Below, one piece after another: positions 8,575 to 48,856 of a DNA stretch of 64,000 bases (position 1 is its first letter; every line of letters begins with the position of its first letter). The DNA comes from Aquificota bacterium (GTDB lineage: Bacteria; Aquificota; Aquificia; Aquificales; Aquificaceae), in NCBI GenBank assembly GCA_018771605.1, contig CP076324.1, positions 1,589,700-1,653,699 on the forward strand, in the 5' to 3' direction. Both the position numbers and the translations under genes were made by a program. The notes under the pieces are model-generated. The model saw nothing but the letters and a program-made list of their open reading frames with translations, ran no database searches and was not told where the DNA came from.

Positions 8575-8603
8575 TTGACAAATGAAAAAAATTTTCATAT
8601 AAT
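8575..8603 (+). promoter_or_regulatory. Consensus sigma70 promoter of rubrerythrin
   Basis: TTGACA at 8575-8580 and TATAAT at 8598-8603, separated by exactly 17 bp: a perfect consensus housekeeping promoter and the strongest in the window. The spacer is filled by a palindrome that probably binds a repressor. Confidence 0.85.
8581..8599. promoter_or_regulatory. Putative operator in the rubrerythrin promoter
   Basis: AATGAAAAAAATTTTCATA contains the 7-3-7 inverted repeat ATGAAAA/TTTTCAT and sits between -35 and -10. By eye, 14 of 19 positions match a palindrome in the peroxiredoxin promoter at 46931-46949. A Fur/PerR-family regulator is the natural candidate. Confidence 0.5.
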
Positions 8604-8638: not shown

Positions 8639-9073
8639 ATGAGCAAGAGCTTACAAGGAACCAAGACCCTTGAGAACCTTATGCATGCCTTTGCTGGCGA
8701 GTCCCAAGCCAACAGAAGGTATCTCTACTTTGCCAGAAAGGCAGACATTGAGGGCTATCCAGACATAGCCAACATATTCAGGGAAACGGCAGAAGGCGAG
8801 ACTGGACACGCCTTTGGACACTTGGAATTCCTTGAGAAGTATGGCGGTGGAGACCCTGCCACCAAGATGCCCATAGGAACCATGGAACAGAACCTTGAAG
8901 CTGCCATAGCTGGTGAAACCTACGAGTACACCGAAATGTACCCAGGTTTTGCAAGGGTAGCAAGGGAAGAAGGTTTTGATGACATAGCCGAGTGGTTTGA
9001 GACCCTTGCCAGGGCAGAAAAGTCCCACGCTGGAAGGTTCCAAAAGGCTTTGGAATCTCTTAAGAACGGCTAA
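8639..9073 (+). CDS. Rubrerythrin lacking the rubredoxin domain (erythrin/sulerythrin type)
   Basis: Di-iron four-helix-bundle peroxidase that reduces hydrogen peroxide to water in anaerobes and microaerophiles. 144 aa from the ATG at 8639, chosen over the in-frame GTG at 8630 because AGGAGG at 8625-8630 is then well spaced. Iron ligands match the family: E21, E54 with H57 (ETGH), E93/E96 (GETYE) and E127 with H130 (EKSH). The C-terminal CxxC rubredoxin domain of classical rubrerythrin is absent, so a separate electron donor is needed. The CCG-domain Fe-S protein downstream could be part of that route (inference). Confidence 0.93.
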
Positions 9074-9126: not shown

Positions 9127-10416
9127 ATGAACGAACTTGCTATCGGTGGTGTGAAAGATTTTGAATTTAATATAAAGGATCCCAATTTTTTAAACGAACA
9201 AGCCCTATGGGAAGAGGCAAAGAGGGTATTTTCCAAATGCAAAGACTGTAGGATGTGCGTTACCTACTGTCCTTCTTTCCCAGCCCTCTTTGATGCAGTA
9301 GACAGACATAATGATGATATTGAAAAGCTTTCAAAGGAAGAGCTTGCCCTTCCCTTAGAGCTATGCTTTCATTGCAAACAGTGCTATTTTAAATGCCCTT
9401 ACACACCACCCCATGAGTGGAAGATAGACTTTCCCCACCTTTCTCTGAGGTATAAAGTGTGGAAATTCAAAAACAAAGGAGCAAAAATAACGGATAAATT
9501 TATGCTAAATACAGACTTGGTAGGCAAACTCTCCGTTCCCTTTGCTCCCATTGTGAATAAGCTAAACAATACACCCACCTTCCGGGTGATTATGGAAAAC
9601 TTTATGGGTATTGACAGAAGGGCAAAGCTCCCACCCATTAACTCGGAGACCTTTGCAAGTTGGTTTAGAAAGAACAGAAAGCCGGTAAAGGGTGAGAATG
9701 GTAAGGTGGCCCTCTTTTACACATGCCTTCTAAATTACAACTACCTTGAGAGGGGAAAGGCCCTCTTGAAGGTCTTTGAGAAGAATGACATATACATAGA
9801 GCTTCCAGAACAGCAGTGCTGTGGCATACCTTCTTTTGATATAGGAGATATAGATACGGCCATAGAGAAGGCAAAGTATAACGTGGAAAGGCTAAAGGAG
9901 TATGTAAAGGCAGGCTTTGATATTGTGGTGCCAGTACCTACCTGCGCCCTTCAGATAAAGTATGAATATCCCCTTTTATTACCCGATGACCCAGACGTTA
10001 AACTTGTCTCCGAAAAGGTTTACGATGTGCATGAGTACCTTTTCAAGCTTCATCAGGAAAAGAGGTTCAACAAGGACTTTAAGCGTTCCCTTGGAAGCAT
10101 AGCCTACCATATACCTTGCCACCTTAAATCCCTAAACGTAGGCTATAGGGCTGTGGCACTTATGAGGTTAATACCAAACACAAAAATTCAAATAATAGAA
10201 AGATGCTCTGGACATGATGGCACCTTTGGAGTACGAAAGGAAACCTTTGATATGTCTATAAAAGTAGGCTCAAAGCTTTTTGAAGATATGAAAAACTCCA
10301 ACGCAGACCTCTTTGTGTCCGACTGTCCCCTCTCGGGCAACCATATAGAAATGGCAACGGGCAAAAAGGTTTACCATCCACTTGAGGTGCTGGCAATGGC
10401 CTATGGAGAGGATTGA
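9127..10416 (+). CDS. Iron-sulfur oxidoreductase with two 4Fe-4S clusters and CCG domains (GlpC/HdrD-like)
   Basis: Electron-transfer protein related to the GlpC subunit of anaerobic glycerol-3-phosphate dehydrogenase and to heterodisulfide reductase HdrD/B. 429 aa. Two ferredoxin-type clusters are bound by C38, C41, C44, C48 and C80, C83, C86, C90. Two cysteine-rich CCG modules follow (CCGIPSFDIGD; later HIPCHLKS and CSGHDGT). No membrane segment or signal peptide. A good AAGGAGG ribosome site precedes the ATG. No glpA or glpB partner is nearby; pairing with rubrerythrin suggests a role in electron supply for peroxide reduction, which is inference. Confidence 0.85.
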   Translation: MNELAIGGVKDFEFNIKDPNFLNEQALWEEAKRVFSKCKDCRMCVTYCPSFPALFDAVDRHNDDIEKLSKEELALPLELCFHCKQCYFKCPYTPPHEWKIDFPHLSLRYKVWKFKNKGAKITDKFMLNTDLVGKLSVPFAPIVNKLNNTPTFRVIMENFMGIDRRAKLPPINSETFASWFRKNRKPVKGENGKVALFYTCLLNYNYLERGKALLKVFEKNDIYIELPEQQCCGIPSFDIGDIDTAIEKAKYNVERLKEYVKAGFDIVVPVPTCALQIKYEYPLLLPDDPDVKLVSEKVYDVHEYLFKLHQEKRFNKDFKRSLGSIAYHIPCHLKSLNVGYRAVALMRLIPNTKIQIIERCSGHDGTFGVRKETFDMSIKVGSKLFEDMKNSNADLFVSDCPLSGNHIEMATGKKVYHPLEVLAMAYGED

Positions 10417-45267: not shown

Positions 45268-46239
45268 CTACCATTGGGATGTAATTTTTGCCTTCTTGTT
45301 AAGATATTTGTCCACCGCAAGAGCAGCTTTTACACCATCCGCAGCGGCTATAACGGCCTGTTTTATATTGTTGCAAAGCACATCCCCAGCAGCAAAAACC
45401 CCCGGCACAGAGGTCATCATTTCCTCATTAACCACTATACAATGCCCGTCTGTCATTTCTACTTGGTTCATTAGGAAATCTACCGAAGGCTTATTACCGC
45501 CCAAGAATATAAAAACACCATCCACTTGAAGGAGCTTCTTTTCTTTTGTGGCGATATTTTGAACCCATAAACCTTCCACAAGGGAGCTTCCTACTATTTC
45601 CATAACTCTATGATGCAATAGAATTTCAACCTTTGGATTAAATTGGATTTCAGAAACCATTTCAGGTGGAGCTTTTATTTTGCTGGAAGGCACAACCAAA
45701 TATATCTTACTGGCAAAACGTGCAATGAACTCTGTCTCTTCAAGGGCATAATCGTCCTCACCGATAACGGCCACAGGCCTATCTTTGAAAAAGGCTGCAT
45801 CACACACTCCGCAGTAAGAAACACCCTTGCCCAAAAATTCTTCTTCACCTTTGTACTTATTAGTCCTCTCCATTGCACCGGAAGCTATTATTACAGCTCT
45901 TCCTTTAAATTCTCTTCCGTCTATGGTATAAACTTTCTTTATCTCTCCCAAAAGGTCTGTGGCTATTACTTTACCCCTTACAAACTCAGCTCCAAAGGCC
46001 TTTGCATGTTCTCTTATTAGTTTTAAAAGCTCATAGCCAGAAATGGGGCCTCTTATACCTGGATAGTTTTCTATCTGCTGTGTCACGCCCAAGGCACCAT
46101 CGGCCTCCGCCCTGTATAGCACCAGTGTAGAAAGCCCAGCCCTTGCAGTGTATATGGCCGCAGAAGAACCAGCAGGACCAGCACCTATTATTATCACATC
46201 ATAAACCTTATCCGTATGAAAATCCAAAGTTAGCTCCAT
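45268..46239 (-). CDS. Thioredoxin reductase-like flavoprotein with degenerate NADPH site
   Basis: 323 aa from the ATG at 46239 with GGAGG 7 nt upstream. FAD-binding IIIGAGPAGSSAAIYTARAG (residues 17-36), redox-active CGVC (143-146) and C-terminal VFAAGDV FAD loop are intact. In the pyridine nucleotide domain, the usual GGGxSAxEEA becomes GEDDYALEE (160-168) and the HRRxxxRA motif becomes VPSSKIK (183-189), so NADPH binding is doubtful; ferredoxin or another donor may be used. Next to a peroxiredoxin gene, with a hairpin between them. Confidence 0.85.
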   Translation of the reverse strand: MELTLDFHTDKVYDVIIIGAGPAGSSAAIYTARAGLSTLVLYRAEADGALGVTQQIENYPGIRGPISGYELLKLIREHAKAFGAEFVRGKVIATDLLGEIKKVYTIDGREFKGRAVIIASGAMERTNKYKGEEEFLGKGVSYCGVCDAAFFKDRPVAVIGEDDYALEETEFIARFASKIYLVVPSSKIKAPPEMVSEIQFNPKVEILLHHRVMEIVGSSLVEGLWVQNIATKEKKLLQVDGVFIFLGGNKPSVDFLMNQVEMTDGHCIVVNEEMMTSVPGVFAAGDVLCNNIKQAVIAAADGVKAALAVDKYLNKKAKITSQW

Positions 46240-46255
46240 CTTTTTACCTCCAACT

Positions 46256-46281
46256 TTAAAAAAATATAACCCCCCAGAGGG
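46256..46281 (-). terminator. Attenuating hairpin between peroxiredoxin and the TrxR-like gene
   Basis: On the minus strand CCCCC-TCT-GGGGG is followed by GTTATATTTTTTT. It probably ends most peroxiredoxin transcripts and lets some continue into the flavoprotein gene 17 nt downstream. Confidence 0.6.
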
Positions 46282-46289
46282 GGAAGTAA

Positions 46290-46886
46290 TCAATCTTTTA
46301 GCGCCTCATAAACCCTACCTACCAACTCCTGAGAAGGCTTTAGCGTCTTTTCTCCTTCCTTCCACTTGGCAGGGCAAGCCTCGTCTGGATGGCTCATAAG
46401 ATAGATATTTGCCTTCATCTTCCTAATAAGTTCCTCTGCATTCCTGCCCACATTGTAGAAGTTTATCTCCGAGCCAACAAGCACGCCATCGGGATTGATT
46501 ATAAAAGTTCCTCTTAAAGCAAGGCCCGTATTCTCATCATAAACTCCAAAGAGCCTTGAAATCTTGCCGGTTGGGTCAGCGCCCATCAAGTATCTAACCT
46601 TTTCAAGAAGCTTTTCTGTCCTCTGCCATGCTAAGTGGGTGTATTTTGTATCGGTGGATACGGAGATCACTTCTACTCCCATGCTTTGAAGCTCCTCATA
46701 GTATTCTGCCAGGTCCGCCAGCTCTGTGGGGCATACAAAGGTAAAGTCCGCCGGGTAGAAGAAAAGCACAACCCATTTGCGTTCCCTGAGAAAATCCTCA
46801 AGGGAAATTTTACCAAAGCTTAGGGTCTTGGGATCATAAACCTCCATCTCAAAGTTTGGGACCCTTTGTCCTACCTTTACTTCCAT
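46290..46886 (-). CDS. Peroxiredoxin, AhpC/Prx1 type (typical 2-Cys)
   Basis: Thiol peroxidase. 198 aa from the ATG at 46886, with AAAGGAGG well placed; an earlier in-frame codon at 46904 overlaps that ribosome site. Peroxidatic C52 in DFTFVCPTELADL and resolving C171 in DEACPAKW. The WQRTEKL and GVYDENTGLALRGTFII segments match AhpC-like enzymes. Reduced thiols could come from the neighbouring TrxR-like flavoprotein. The promoter at 46921-46948 contains a palindromic operator candidate. Confidence 0.95.
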   Translation of the reverse strand: MEVKVGQRVPNFEMEVYDPKTLSFGKISLEDFLRERKWVVLFFYPADFTFVCPTELADLAEYYEELQSMGVEVISVSTDTKYTHLAWQRTEKLLEKVRYLMGADPTGKISRLFGVYDENTGLALRGTFIINPDGVLVGSEINFYNVGRNAEELIRKMKANIYLMSHPDEACPAKWKEGEKTLKPSQELVGRVYEALKD

Positions 46887-46920: not shown

Positions 46921-46948
46921 ATTATAAGTAATTGAAAATAATTTGCAA
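46921..46948 (-). promoter_or_regulatory. Promoter of the peroxiredoxin gene
   Basis: On the minus strand TTGCAA (46943-46948) and TATAAT (46921-46926), separated by 16 bp, about 35 bp before the ATG at 46886. The spacer holds a palindrome described separately. Confidence 0.65.
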
Positions 46949-46949
46949 T
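46931..46949. promoter_or_regulatory. Putative operator in the peroxiredoxin promoter
   Basis: ATTGAAAATAATTTGCAAT is a perfect palindrome except at the three spacer bases: ATTG-n-AAAT-n-ATTT-n-CAAT, the 9-1-9 geometry of Fur/PerR-family boxes. It covers the -35 and spacer. By eye it matches 14 of 19 bases of the site in the rubrerythrin promoter (8581-8599). Confidence 0.55.
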
Positions 46950-47008
46950 ATGATAGAAATCAATGTGATATACTTTTCTAACTTCTACCTTTTTACCAAG
47001 GAGGGGCC

Positions 47009-48856
47009 ATGAAAAGGAATATGGTCATCAAGGTCCTGCTGGTTATAAGTTCAGCCTTCCTCGTTATCCTTTTTACAGCTCTTTACGCCTTTAGGTCCCA
47101 AGGGTTAGAAGAGGCAAAACAAAGGGCTTACATGATATCCGAGCTTGTAAGGGACACCCTTACCTCATACATGATAATGGGCGTGATGGATAGAAGGGAT
47201 GAATTCCTTGGTAGGATAAAAGAGATAAAGGGTGTGGAAGAGATAAGGGTGGTAAGGGGCAGGGCGGTGGTTGAACAGTTTGGTGCTGGCTCAAAGTTTG
47301 AAATGCCAAGAGATGAGATAGAGAAGGCTGTGTTAGAAAGTGGAAAACCAATGGAAGTTTTGGATGAATCTTTAAGAAGTGTAAAATACAGGATAGTTAT
47401 ACCTTATAAGGCAGAGCCTATAAAAGGGATAAACTGCCTTGAATGCCATAAGGCTAAACCTGGGGAAACCCTTGGGGCTATTAGTCTTACCATGGACCTT
47501 TCTCATATAAAAGAAAAGTCATTACATATATTTTTATTGACTACTACAGTATTTTTACTTGCCTTTTTAGGCATTTTCTTTTTCTTTAACTCCTTTATTA
47601 CAAAGGTAAGCAATTTTATTAAAGAAATTGAACTTACAATGAGGTCTGCAAGTGAAGGAAACTTTAAAACTGAAATAAAAACAGACCTGGGCTATGAAAC
47701 ACGTTCTTTGAAAGAAAGCATAGAACAATCCTTTTACAATCTCCAAAACACGCTTACATCTATAGAAGAAAAAGTTAGGACAATGATAGGATACGGTGTT
47801 ATAAAAACTGGAAACGTACTTTCAGATACTTCAAAAATAGTAGATGAATTGCTCAATATATACAAATTTAAAAGAGTTATTGAAAAGGATAAAAGTAAAA
47901 AAGAAGTTTATGAAAGGTTAAGAGAAGTTCTTGAAGATTATATGAGTTTAGAAAACTTCTCCATATACGAAGTGGACCAGAACAAAAACAAAATATCCCC
48001 AGTTTATGTGAAAGGAGCCAAATATTGGTGCAATGAAGTTATTTTTGAAAATGCAGAAGAGTGTAGAGCGGAAAGGACTGGTATGGACGTAGATTCTAGA
48101 GAGTTTCCATGTGTATGTCCAAACTTTATAGACAACGATGTATGTAAACAGGGGAAGATGCACTATTATTGCATACCCGTTTATGTGGGCGGGATGGTAG
48201 GAAACGTGGTGCAGATAGTTTATGAACCGGAAATGGAGCCATTTATAAACCTTATAATCCCTTACATAAAGGGATACCTCAACGAGGCCTCGCCAGTCCT
48301 TGAAGCAAGGACTTACATGGATATGTTGAGGGAACAGTCCCTTAGGGACCAGCTTACAGGCCTGTATAACAGAAGGTTCCTTGATGAGACCATTGACAAG
48401 ATAGCGGCCCAGATAAAAAGAAGGGGAACCACCCTTGGAATCCTTATGGTGGATATAGACTATTTTAAGGAGGTTAACGACACTTACGGGCATGATATGG
48501 GAGATAAGGTTTTAAAAGAAATAGCTAAGGTTTTGGTAAAATCTGTGAGAGAGGCCGATCTGGTTATAAGGTTTGGAGGGGAGGAGTTTTTGGTGCTTTT
48601 GATGGATGTGCAAAGCGGAAAGTCCGTAGAAATAGCGGAAAAGATAAGAAAAGCTGTAGAAAGCCATACCATAGAATCTTTTGGAGTTGTGCTTAGAAAA
48701 ACTGTAAGCATAGGGGTTTCCGAGTTCCCAGAAGATAGCGAAAAAATATGGCAATGCATAAAGTATGCAGACGTAGCACTTTATAAGGCTAAGGAGATGG
48801 GTAGAAATAGGGTGGTTCGCTTCAGGCCAGAGTTTTGGACAGAGAATAACTACTAA
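47009..48856 (+). CDS. Membrane diguanylate cyclase with c-type haem site and Cys-rich GAF-like domain
   Basis: 615 aa. TM1 at residues ~7-28; extracytoplasmic domain with a haem c motif CLECH (C143, C146, H147) near its end; TM2 ~172-196; HAMP-like region; GAF-like domain (~285-440) with a cysteine cluster (WCNEV, EECRAERTG, FPCVCPN, VCKQG, YYCIPV); then a GGDEF domain with GGEEF. An RxxD inhibitory site (READ) lies five residues before GGEEF, so c-di-GMP feedback is likely. It should make c-di-GMP in response to redox state or a haem ligand. Divergent from peroxiredoxin; AAGGAGG ribosome site. Confidence 0.9.
   Translation: MKRNMVIKVLLVISSAFLVILFTALYAFRSQGLEEAKQRAYMISELVRDTLTSYMIMGVMDRRDEFLGRIKEIKGVEEIRVVRGRAVVEQFGAGSKFEMPRDEIEKAVLESGKPMEVLDESLRSVKYRIVIPYKAEPIKGINCLECHKAKPGETLGAISLTMDLSHIKEKSLHIFLLTTTVFLLAFLGIFFFFNSFITKVSNFIKEIELTMRSASEGNFKTEIKTDLGYETRSLKESIEQSFYNLQNTLTSIEEKVRTMIGYGVIKTGNVLSDTSKIVDELLNIYKFKRVIEKDKSKKEVYERLREVLEDYMSLENFSIYEVDQNKNKISPVYVKGAKYWCNEVIFENAEECRAERTGMDVDSREFPCVCPNFIDNDVCKQGKMHYYCIPVYVGGMVGNVVQIVYEPEMEPFINLIIPYIKGYLNEASPVLEARTYMDMLREQSLRDQLTGLYNRRFLDETIDKIAAQIKRRGTTLGILMVDIDYFKEVNDTYGHDMGDKVLKEIAKVLVKSVREADLVIRFGGEEFLVLLMDVQSGKSVEIAEKIRKAVESHTIESFGVVLRKTVSIGVSEFPEDSEKIWQCIKYADVALYKAKEMGRNRVVRFRPEFWTENNY

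Follow-up and report, generated by a model that had tools for sequence, protein, structure and literature searches.

The window analysed here, a stretch of 64,000 nucleotides from an Aquificota genome, contains two similar palindromes in front of genes for peroxide removal, which raises the question of whether they are operators of a common regulator and, if so, of which one. The original prediction had read them as 9-1-9 boxes of a PerR/Fur-like regulon with lineage-specific letters.

Two palindromes and the promoters they occupy

Both palindromes were found at the predicted positions, with 14 of 19 bases identical between them, and both overlie promoters of genes for peroxide-removing proteins: rbr (8582-8598) and an ahpC-like peroxiredoxin gene, prx (46932-46948). 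The 9-1-9 geometry proved one step too long; at both outer ends the prevailing base is A (75% and 68%), which is non-palindromic, and the conserved unit is therefore 17 bp rather than 19, an 8-1-8 arrangement with a variable 3-bp centre. Box 1 (ATGAAAAAAATTTTCAT, + strand), delimited by sequence and conservation footprint, fills the 17-bp spacer between the rbr -35 element TTGACA (8575-8580), which is kept in relatives, and the conserved -10 element TATAAT (8598-8603), whose first position is also the last base of the box. Box 2 (TTGCAAATTATTTTCAA, - strand), delimited in the same way, lies over the -35 and spacer of prx, where it covers the -35 element TTGCAA (46943-46948); the -10 element TATAAT follows at 46921-46926, within a conserved TATaATAtT.

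The gene behind box 1, rbr (8639-9073, + strand; 144 aa; Pfam PF02915, E=9.6e-35), encodes an aerobic-type, ferriperoxin-like rubrerythrin without a rubredoxin domain, the type to which the ferriperoxin of H. thermophilus belongs (PMC3317640, PMC5114695). Located 3' of it is the gene for the Fe-S oxidoreductase RFO (9127-10416, + strand; Pfam CCG, E=8.2e-20; GlpC-like by NCBIfam); RFO and DUF3501 have been named as the usual partners of aerobic-type rubrerythrin (PMC5114695). Behind box 2, prx (46290-46886, - strand) encodes an AhpC-type peroxiredoxin of 198 aa (Pfam AhpC-TSA, E=2.7e-38), which matches the AhpC model TIGR03137 with E=1.9e-67, below the cut-off of that model. A thioredoxin reductase gene (45268-46293, - strand; TIGR01292, above cut-off) overlaps the end of prx, with which it probably forms an operon. 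A diguanylate cyclase gene (GGDEF, Mcp-type sensor; 47009-48856) runs divergently from prx and may be co-regulated with it; box 2 lies in the 122 bp of intergenic DNA that the two genes share.

When the window was searched with the pattern WTGMWAANNNTTWKCAW, exactly two matches were obtained, namely the two sites, against 0.09 expected from dinucleotide shuffles; at least two matches occurred in 1 of 100 such shuffles. This figure is optimistic, as the pattern was devised after the sites had been seen, and we therefore place the weight on conservation, on further boxed genes and on specificity across the family.

Conservation of the box across Aquificaceae

By their rubrerythrins, the closest named relatives are Aquificaceae, Thermocrinis and Hydrogenobacter assemblies; the Aquificaceae genera compared are labelled g1 to g11, g1 being the source genome's own genus. 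Orthologous promoters were inspected, as had been proposed, and the palindromes were found to be kept upstream of both rbr and prx orthologues. In the conservation footprint of rbr (21 distinct promoters) the box averaged 1.64 bits per column and the 12 most distal columns 0.31; in that of prx (14 distinct promoters) the two values were 1.50 and 0.23; over the orthologous promoters as a whole, box values were 1.5-1.8 and distal ones 0.2-0.6. The resulting 17-bp consensus is WTGMAAA-NNN-TTTKCAW, or, over 59 distinct boxes of six genes, W-T-G-M-A-A-A-t-n-a-T-T-T-K-C-A-W. T-7, G-6, C+6 and A+7 are conserved in 98-100% of these boxes, while the centre is variable.

Allowing one mismatch at most, a level reached by 0.5% of dinucleotide-shuffled upstream regions, the rbr box was present in 10/11 promoters of g1, 1/1 of g2, 7/7 of g6, 5/5 of g7, 1/1 of g9 and 5/5 of g10; the prx box in 9/10 of g1, 1/1 of g2 and 3/3 of g7; and a box before perR in 12/12 of g1, 1/1 of g2 and 4/5 of g7. 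In g6 and g4 the prx box is displaced or less well matched, and in g3, g5 and g11 it is weak or absent; perR boxes are weak in g6, g9, g10 (1/4), g3 and g4. A further shared element, ATCATA, stands directly upstream of the prx -35 (window 46949-46960) in g1, g2, g6 and g7; g6 retains it despite a box that has shifted to the -10. The rbr promoters of g11 had a TG...CA box in none of five cases; the rbr promoter of one g11 genome has TTAAGAATTATTCTTAA, and g3 has TTATAATAATTATAA in its prx promoter. The canonical PerR box TTATAATNATTATAA is not matched by the family boxes with their TG...CA ends, and was seen only before prx of g3.

The claim of a lineage-specific box was borne out, as none of 65 related rbr promoters from other groups carries it. 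Nine of these 65 carry the palindrome TTTAGAANNNTTCTAAA (0.03 expected), which resembles the Irr box. Another five carry AGGAATnATTCCT (0.1 expected), which resembles Desulfovibrio PerR sites (PMC545781). Given these two palindromes, rubrerythrin operons seem to have come repeatedly under Fur-family palindromes whose letters are specific to the lineage.

Further boxed genes and the divided rubrerythrin trio

In the 1.72 Mb genome the box has six exact matches: before rbr, prx, perR (276406), DUF3501 (132448) and leuA (227556), and at the end of coaE (703751). The expectation that further copies would lie near oxidative-stress and iron genes thus held for the former, and for perR, while the iron genes feoAB have no box, though the fur promoter carries a related site. 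The match at 703751, inside the end of coaE, was rejected as an operator and taken as chance, as was one at 114696 with no gene start nearby. With up to one mismatch, 73 matches were found compared to 39 for a control pattern, and those inspected were mostly intragenic or distant from starts, with the exception of fur. The genome's two other peroxiredoxin genes, bcp-like and located at 932440 and 1463879, had no box nearby among the genome-wide matches listed.

The DUF3501 gene is unlinked from rbr-RFO in g1, and there it has a -35/box/TATAAT promoter of its own in 11/11 genomes (8/11 boxes within one mismatch, 11/11 within two); the single g9 DUF3501 promoter also gave a one-mismatch match. 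From the g1 arrangement a box was predicted before the RFO genes that are separated from rbr in g2, g7 and g10, and it was present in 12/12; this prediction preceded the RFO promoter data, but was set down in writing only together with the outcome. Where RFO or DUF3501 stands in operon position behind rbr, no box of its own was found. A member of the trio that has left the operon thus keeps its own copy of the box on a similar promoter.

A search of 61 genomes for the box combined with a -10 element gave, at one mismatch or less, 73 matches compared to 3 for the reversed pattern. All 36 exact matches lie 26-52 bp upstream of rbr (20), RFO (10) or DUF3501 (6). The one-mismatch extras include two g10 promoters and one g7 promoter of genes for di-haem cytochrome c peroxidase, a further peroxidase, as well as a leuA promoter of g6; the one-mismatch matches of g4 and g11 were inspected in part, and some look like chance. 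Across the family the box precedes the majority of the peroxide-removal genes inspected. Chance likeness of AT-rich promoter DNA could appeal to the 15-mer TGAAAATNATTTTCA, which with three mismatches is no commoner than background (178 genome matches versus 244 for its reversed pattern) and was discarded as too loose a search pattern. The conservation of the box and the result with the separated genes refute this explanation, to which we give practically no credence; the counts for the window pattern and for the box with a -10 also speak against it.

The conserved stretch might also be part of a strong promoter instead of an operator, as in rbr, RFO and DUF3501 it occupies the TTGACA-TATAAT spacer. 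The box is, however, independent of promoter position, lying over the -35 in prx and perR and over the -10 in leuA; moreover, both halves of the palindrome are conserved, and the box with a -10 occurs almost exclusively before functionally linked genes. An extended -10 as the source of conservation was ruled out, since no TGn precedes TATAAT. A purely promoter-based origin is thus very improbable, and the placement of the box over the -35, the spacer or the -10 fits a repressor that excludes RNA polymerase.

The leuA box (227556-227572) was found in 14/14 genomes of g1. This gene, which encodes 2-isopropylmalate synthase, is not a classic PerR target and so counts against a PerR reading; superoxide induces leuA2 more strongly than any other gene in Leptospira (PMC12345160). 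A TnpB-type transposase gene adjoins a boxed promoter in the leuA stretch of the source genome and in one relative. In that relative only fragments of DUF3501 are present, and its boxed promoter points at the TnpB gene.

A probable PerR-type regulator and its place among known systems

The genome encodes two Fur-family proteins, one of PerR type and one of Fur type. The former is encoded outside the window, at about 275960-276385 of the contig (PF01475, E=4.3e-34), and its best PDB match is B. subtilis PerR (2fe3, E=3.9e-32). None of the curated PerR models scored it above cut-off; NF052545, with 127.4 bits against a cut-off of 180, was nonetheless its best hit. The sensing ligands H37, D85, H91, H93 and D104, with Asp and not Glu at 104, are present in 42/42 family PerRs, as is the structural zinc site of four Cys, and positions 85 and 104 are both Glu in 21/21 Fur paralogues. 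In the tree the protein is placed tentatively with B. subtilis PerR and the PerR of g11 (91/76, on long branches). With a PerR-type protein encoded, a box on its own promoter and the same box on peroxide-defence genes, the proposed PerR/Fur-like regulon is supported. Upstream of perR, a divergent DUF192 gene (1501-1878 of the perR stretch) has listed first codons that overlap the perR box; its true start is probably downstream of the listed one.

Judged from sequence, the two palindromes are probably operators of this PerR repressor. In the mechanism we propose, a PerR dimer loaded with Fe(II) or Mn(II) would bind the box within the promoter and keep RNA polymerase off. H2O2 would then oxidise an iron-ligand histidine of PerR and release the protein from the box, upon which rbr-RFO, DUF3501, prx-trxR and perR would be induced jointly.

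In all but one genus the DNA-reading residue of these PerRs is one more usual in Fur, their iron-sensing relative. Residue 61 of PerR is Arg in nine genera, which thus lack the Asn61 of canonical PerR-box readers; Asn was found only in g11. In B. subtilis this residue is reported to separate Fur-box from PerR-box reading, and N61R to turn PerR to the Fur box (Caux-Thang 2015, both as cited in PMC8638851); the Fur-box reading described there for the variant matches the TG...CA boxes of the Aquificaceae. By their residues the Arg61 proteins of the family combine a PerR-type sensor and a Fur-type reader, and Arg61 in the recognition helix offers an explanation of the TG...CA ends. The Asn61 PerR of g11 coincides with rbr promoters without TG...CA; this PerR forms a lineage of its own in the tree, and the change of box may therefore stem from replacement of the regulator and not from residue 61. 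An exception is g3, with TTATAATAATTATAA before prx despite an Arg61 PerR. In Leptospira, LIMLP_18590 combines Arg at this position with the PerR Asp, and its gene is unresponsive to H2O2 (PMC8638851), so that the residues alone are no proof of function. That a natural PerR lineage combines Asp104 for the sensing of peroxide with Arg61 for a Fur-type reading of the box, and in this way runs the peroxide regulon of the Aquificaceae, is a tentative proposal, to which we give slightly less than even chances.

The letters of the box do not by themselves separate PerR from Fur, and the Fur paralogue, an iron repressor, might read it alone or together with PerR, in which case rbr and prx would answer chiefly to iron. 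The Fur of the source genome likewise has Arg61, the related site in the fur promoter (TTGAAAATGATATTCAT) is a one-mismatch match about 20 bp before fur (1524240) that is kept in most g1 genomes, and those boxes of leuA and DUF3501 in which a half reads TGATAAT or ATTATCA resemble classical Fur boxes. In B. subtilis PerR controls fur, and the fur site therefore does not decide between the two regulators. Against a reading by Fur, the targets are peroxide enzymes and perR, and the iron importer genes feoAB have no box in the promoters of 10 genomes; we regard control by Fur as unlikely. Downstream of the -35, the feoAB promoters share a conserved element of their own, approximately TTTTGGGATTGTATATTAATTTCcAAA, to which a different metal regulator may bind.

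PerR boxes that are specific to a lineage and precede perR, rbr and ahpC are already known as a type: Rodionov et al. 2004 (PMC545781) predicted such palindromes for the PerR regulons of metal-reducing deltaproteobacteria. Their sites, like those of the Aquificaceae, stand before these three genes and differ from the B. subtilis box, and one of them overlaps a -10. The letters are different (AwnAGnAAtngTTnCTnwT and others, compared to WTGMAAANNNTTTKCAW in Aquificaceae), several deltaproteobacterial rbr genes adjoin perR, and Table 7 of that study lists no PerR site for RFO, DUF3501 or leuA, which are boxed here. With B. subtilis PerR (2fe3) the Aquificaceae protein shares fold and ligands; its Arg61, paired with Asp104, is natural and nearly family-wide, and the centre of its box is looser. 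Cardenas et al. 2016 (PMC5114695) described the same RBR/RFO/DUF3501 set, with RFO separated in Thermocrinis and H. thermophilus; their main text mentions neither PerR nor promoters, whereas here the separated genes have a common operator. Sato et al. 2012 (PMC3317640) found ferriperoxin of Hydrogenobacter thermophilus, a rubrerythrin of the same type, to be a peroxidase required in aerobic growth, with PerR and regulation unmentioned in the main text. A literature search for PerR in Aquificae or Hydrogenobacter returned nothing relevant; as far as it shows, the box variant, its gene set and its Arg61 reader are new.

This is the first sequence-level peroxide-defence regulon that we could find for the Aquificaceae, a family in which ferriperoxin, the rubrerythrin, is investigated as an early aerobic adaptation. 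DUF3501, to which no function is assigned, and the Fe-S protein RFO would be linked with rubrerythrin not just as gene neighbours but also through common regulation, including where the genes are separated, and the Aquificaceae offer a natural test of a single residue, 61, setting the box specificity of a Fur-family regulator.
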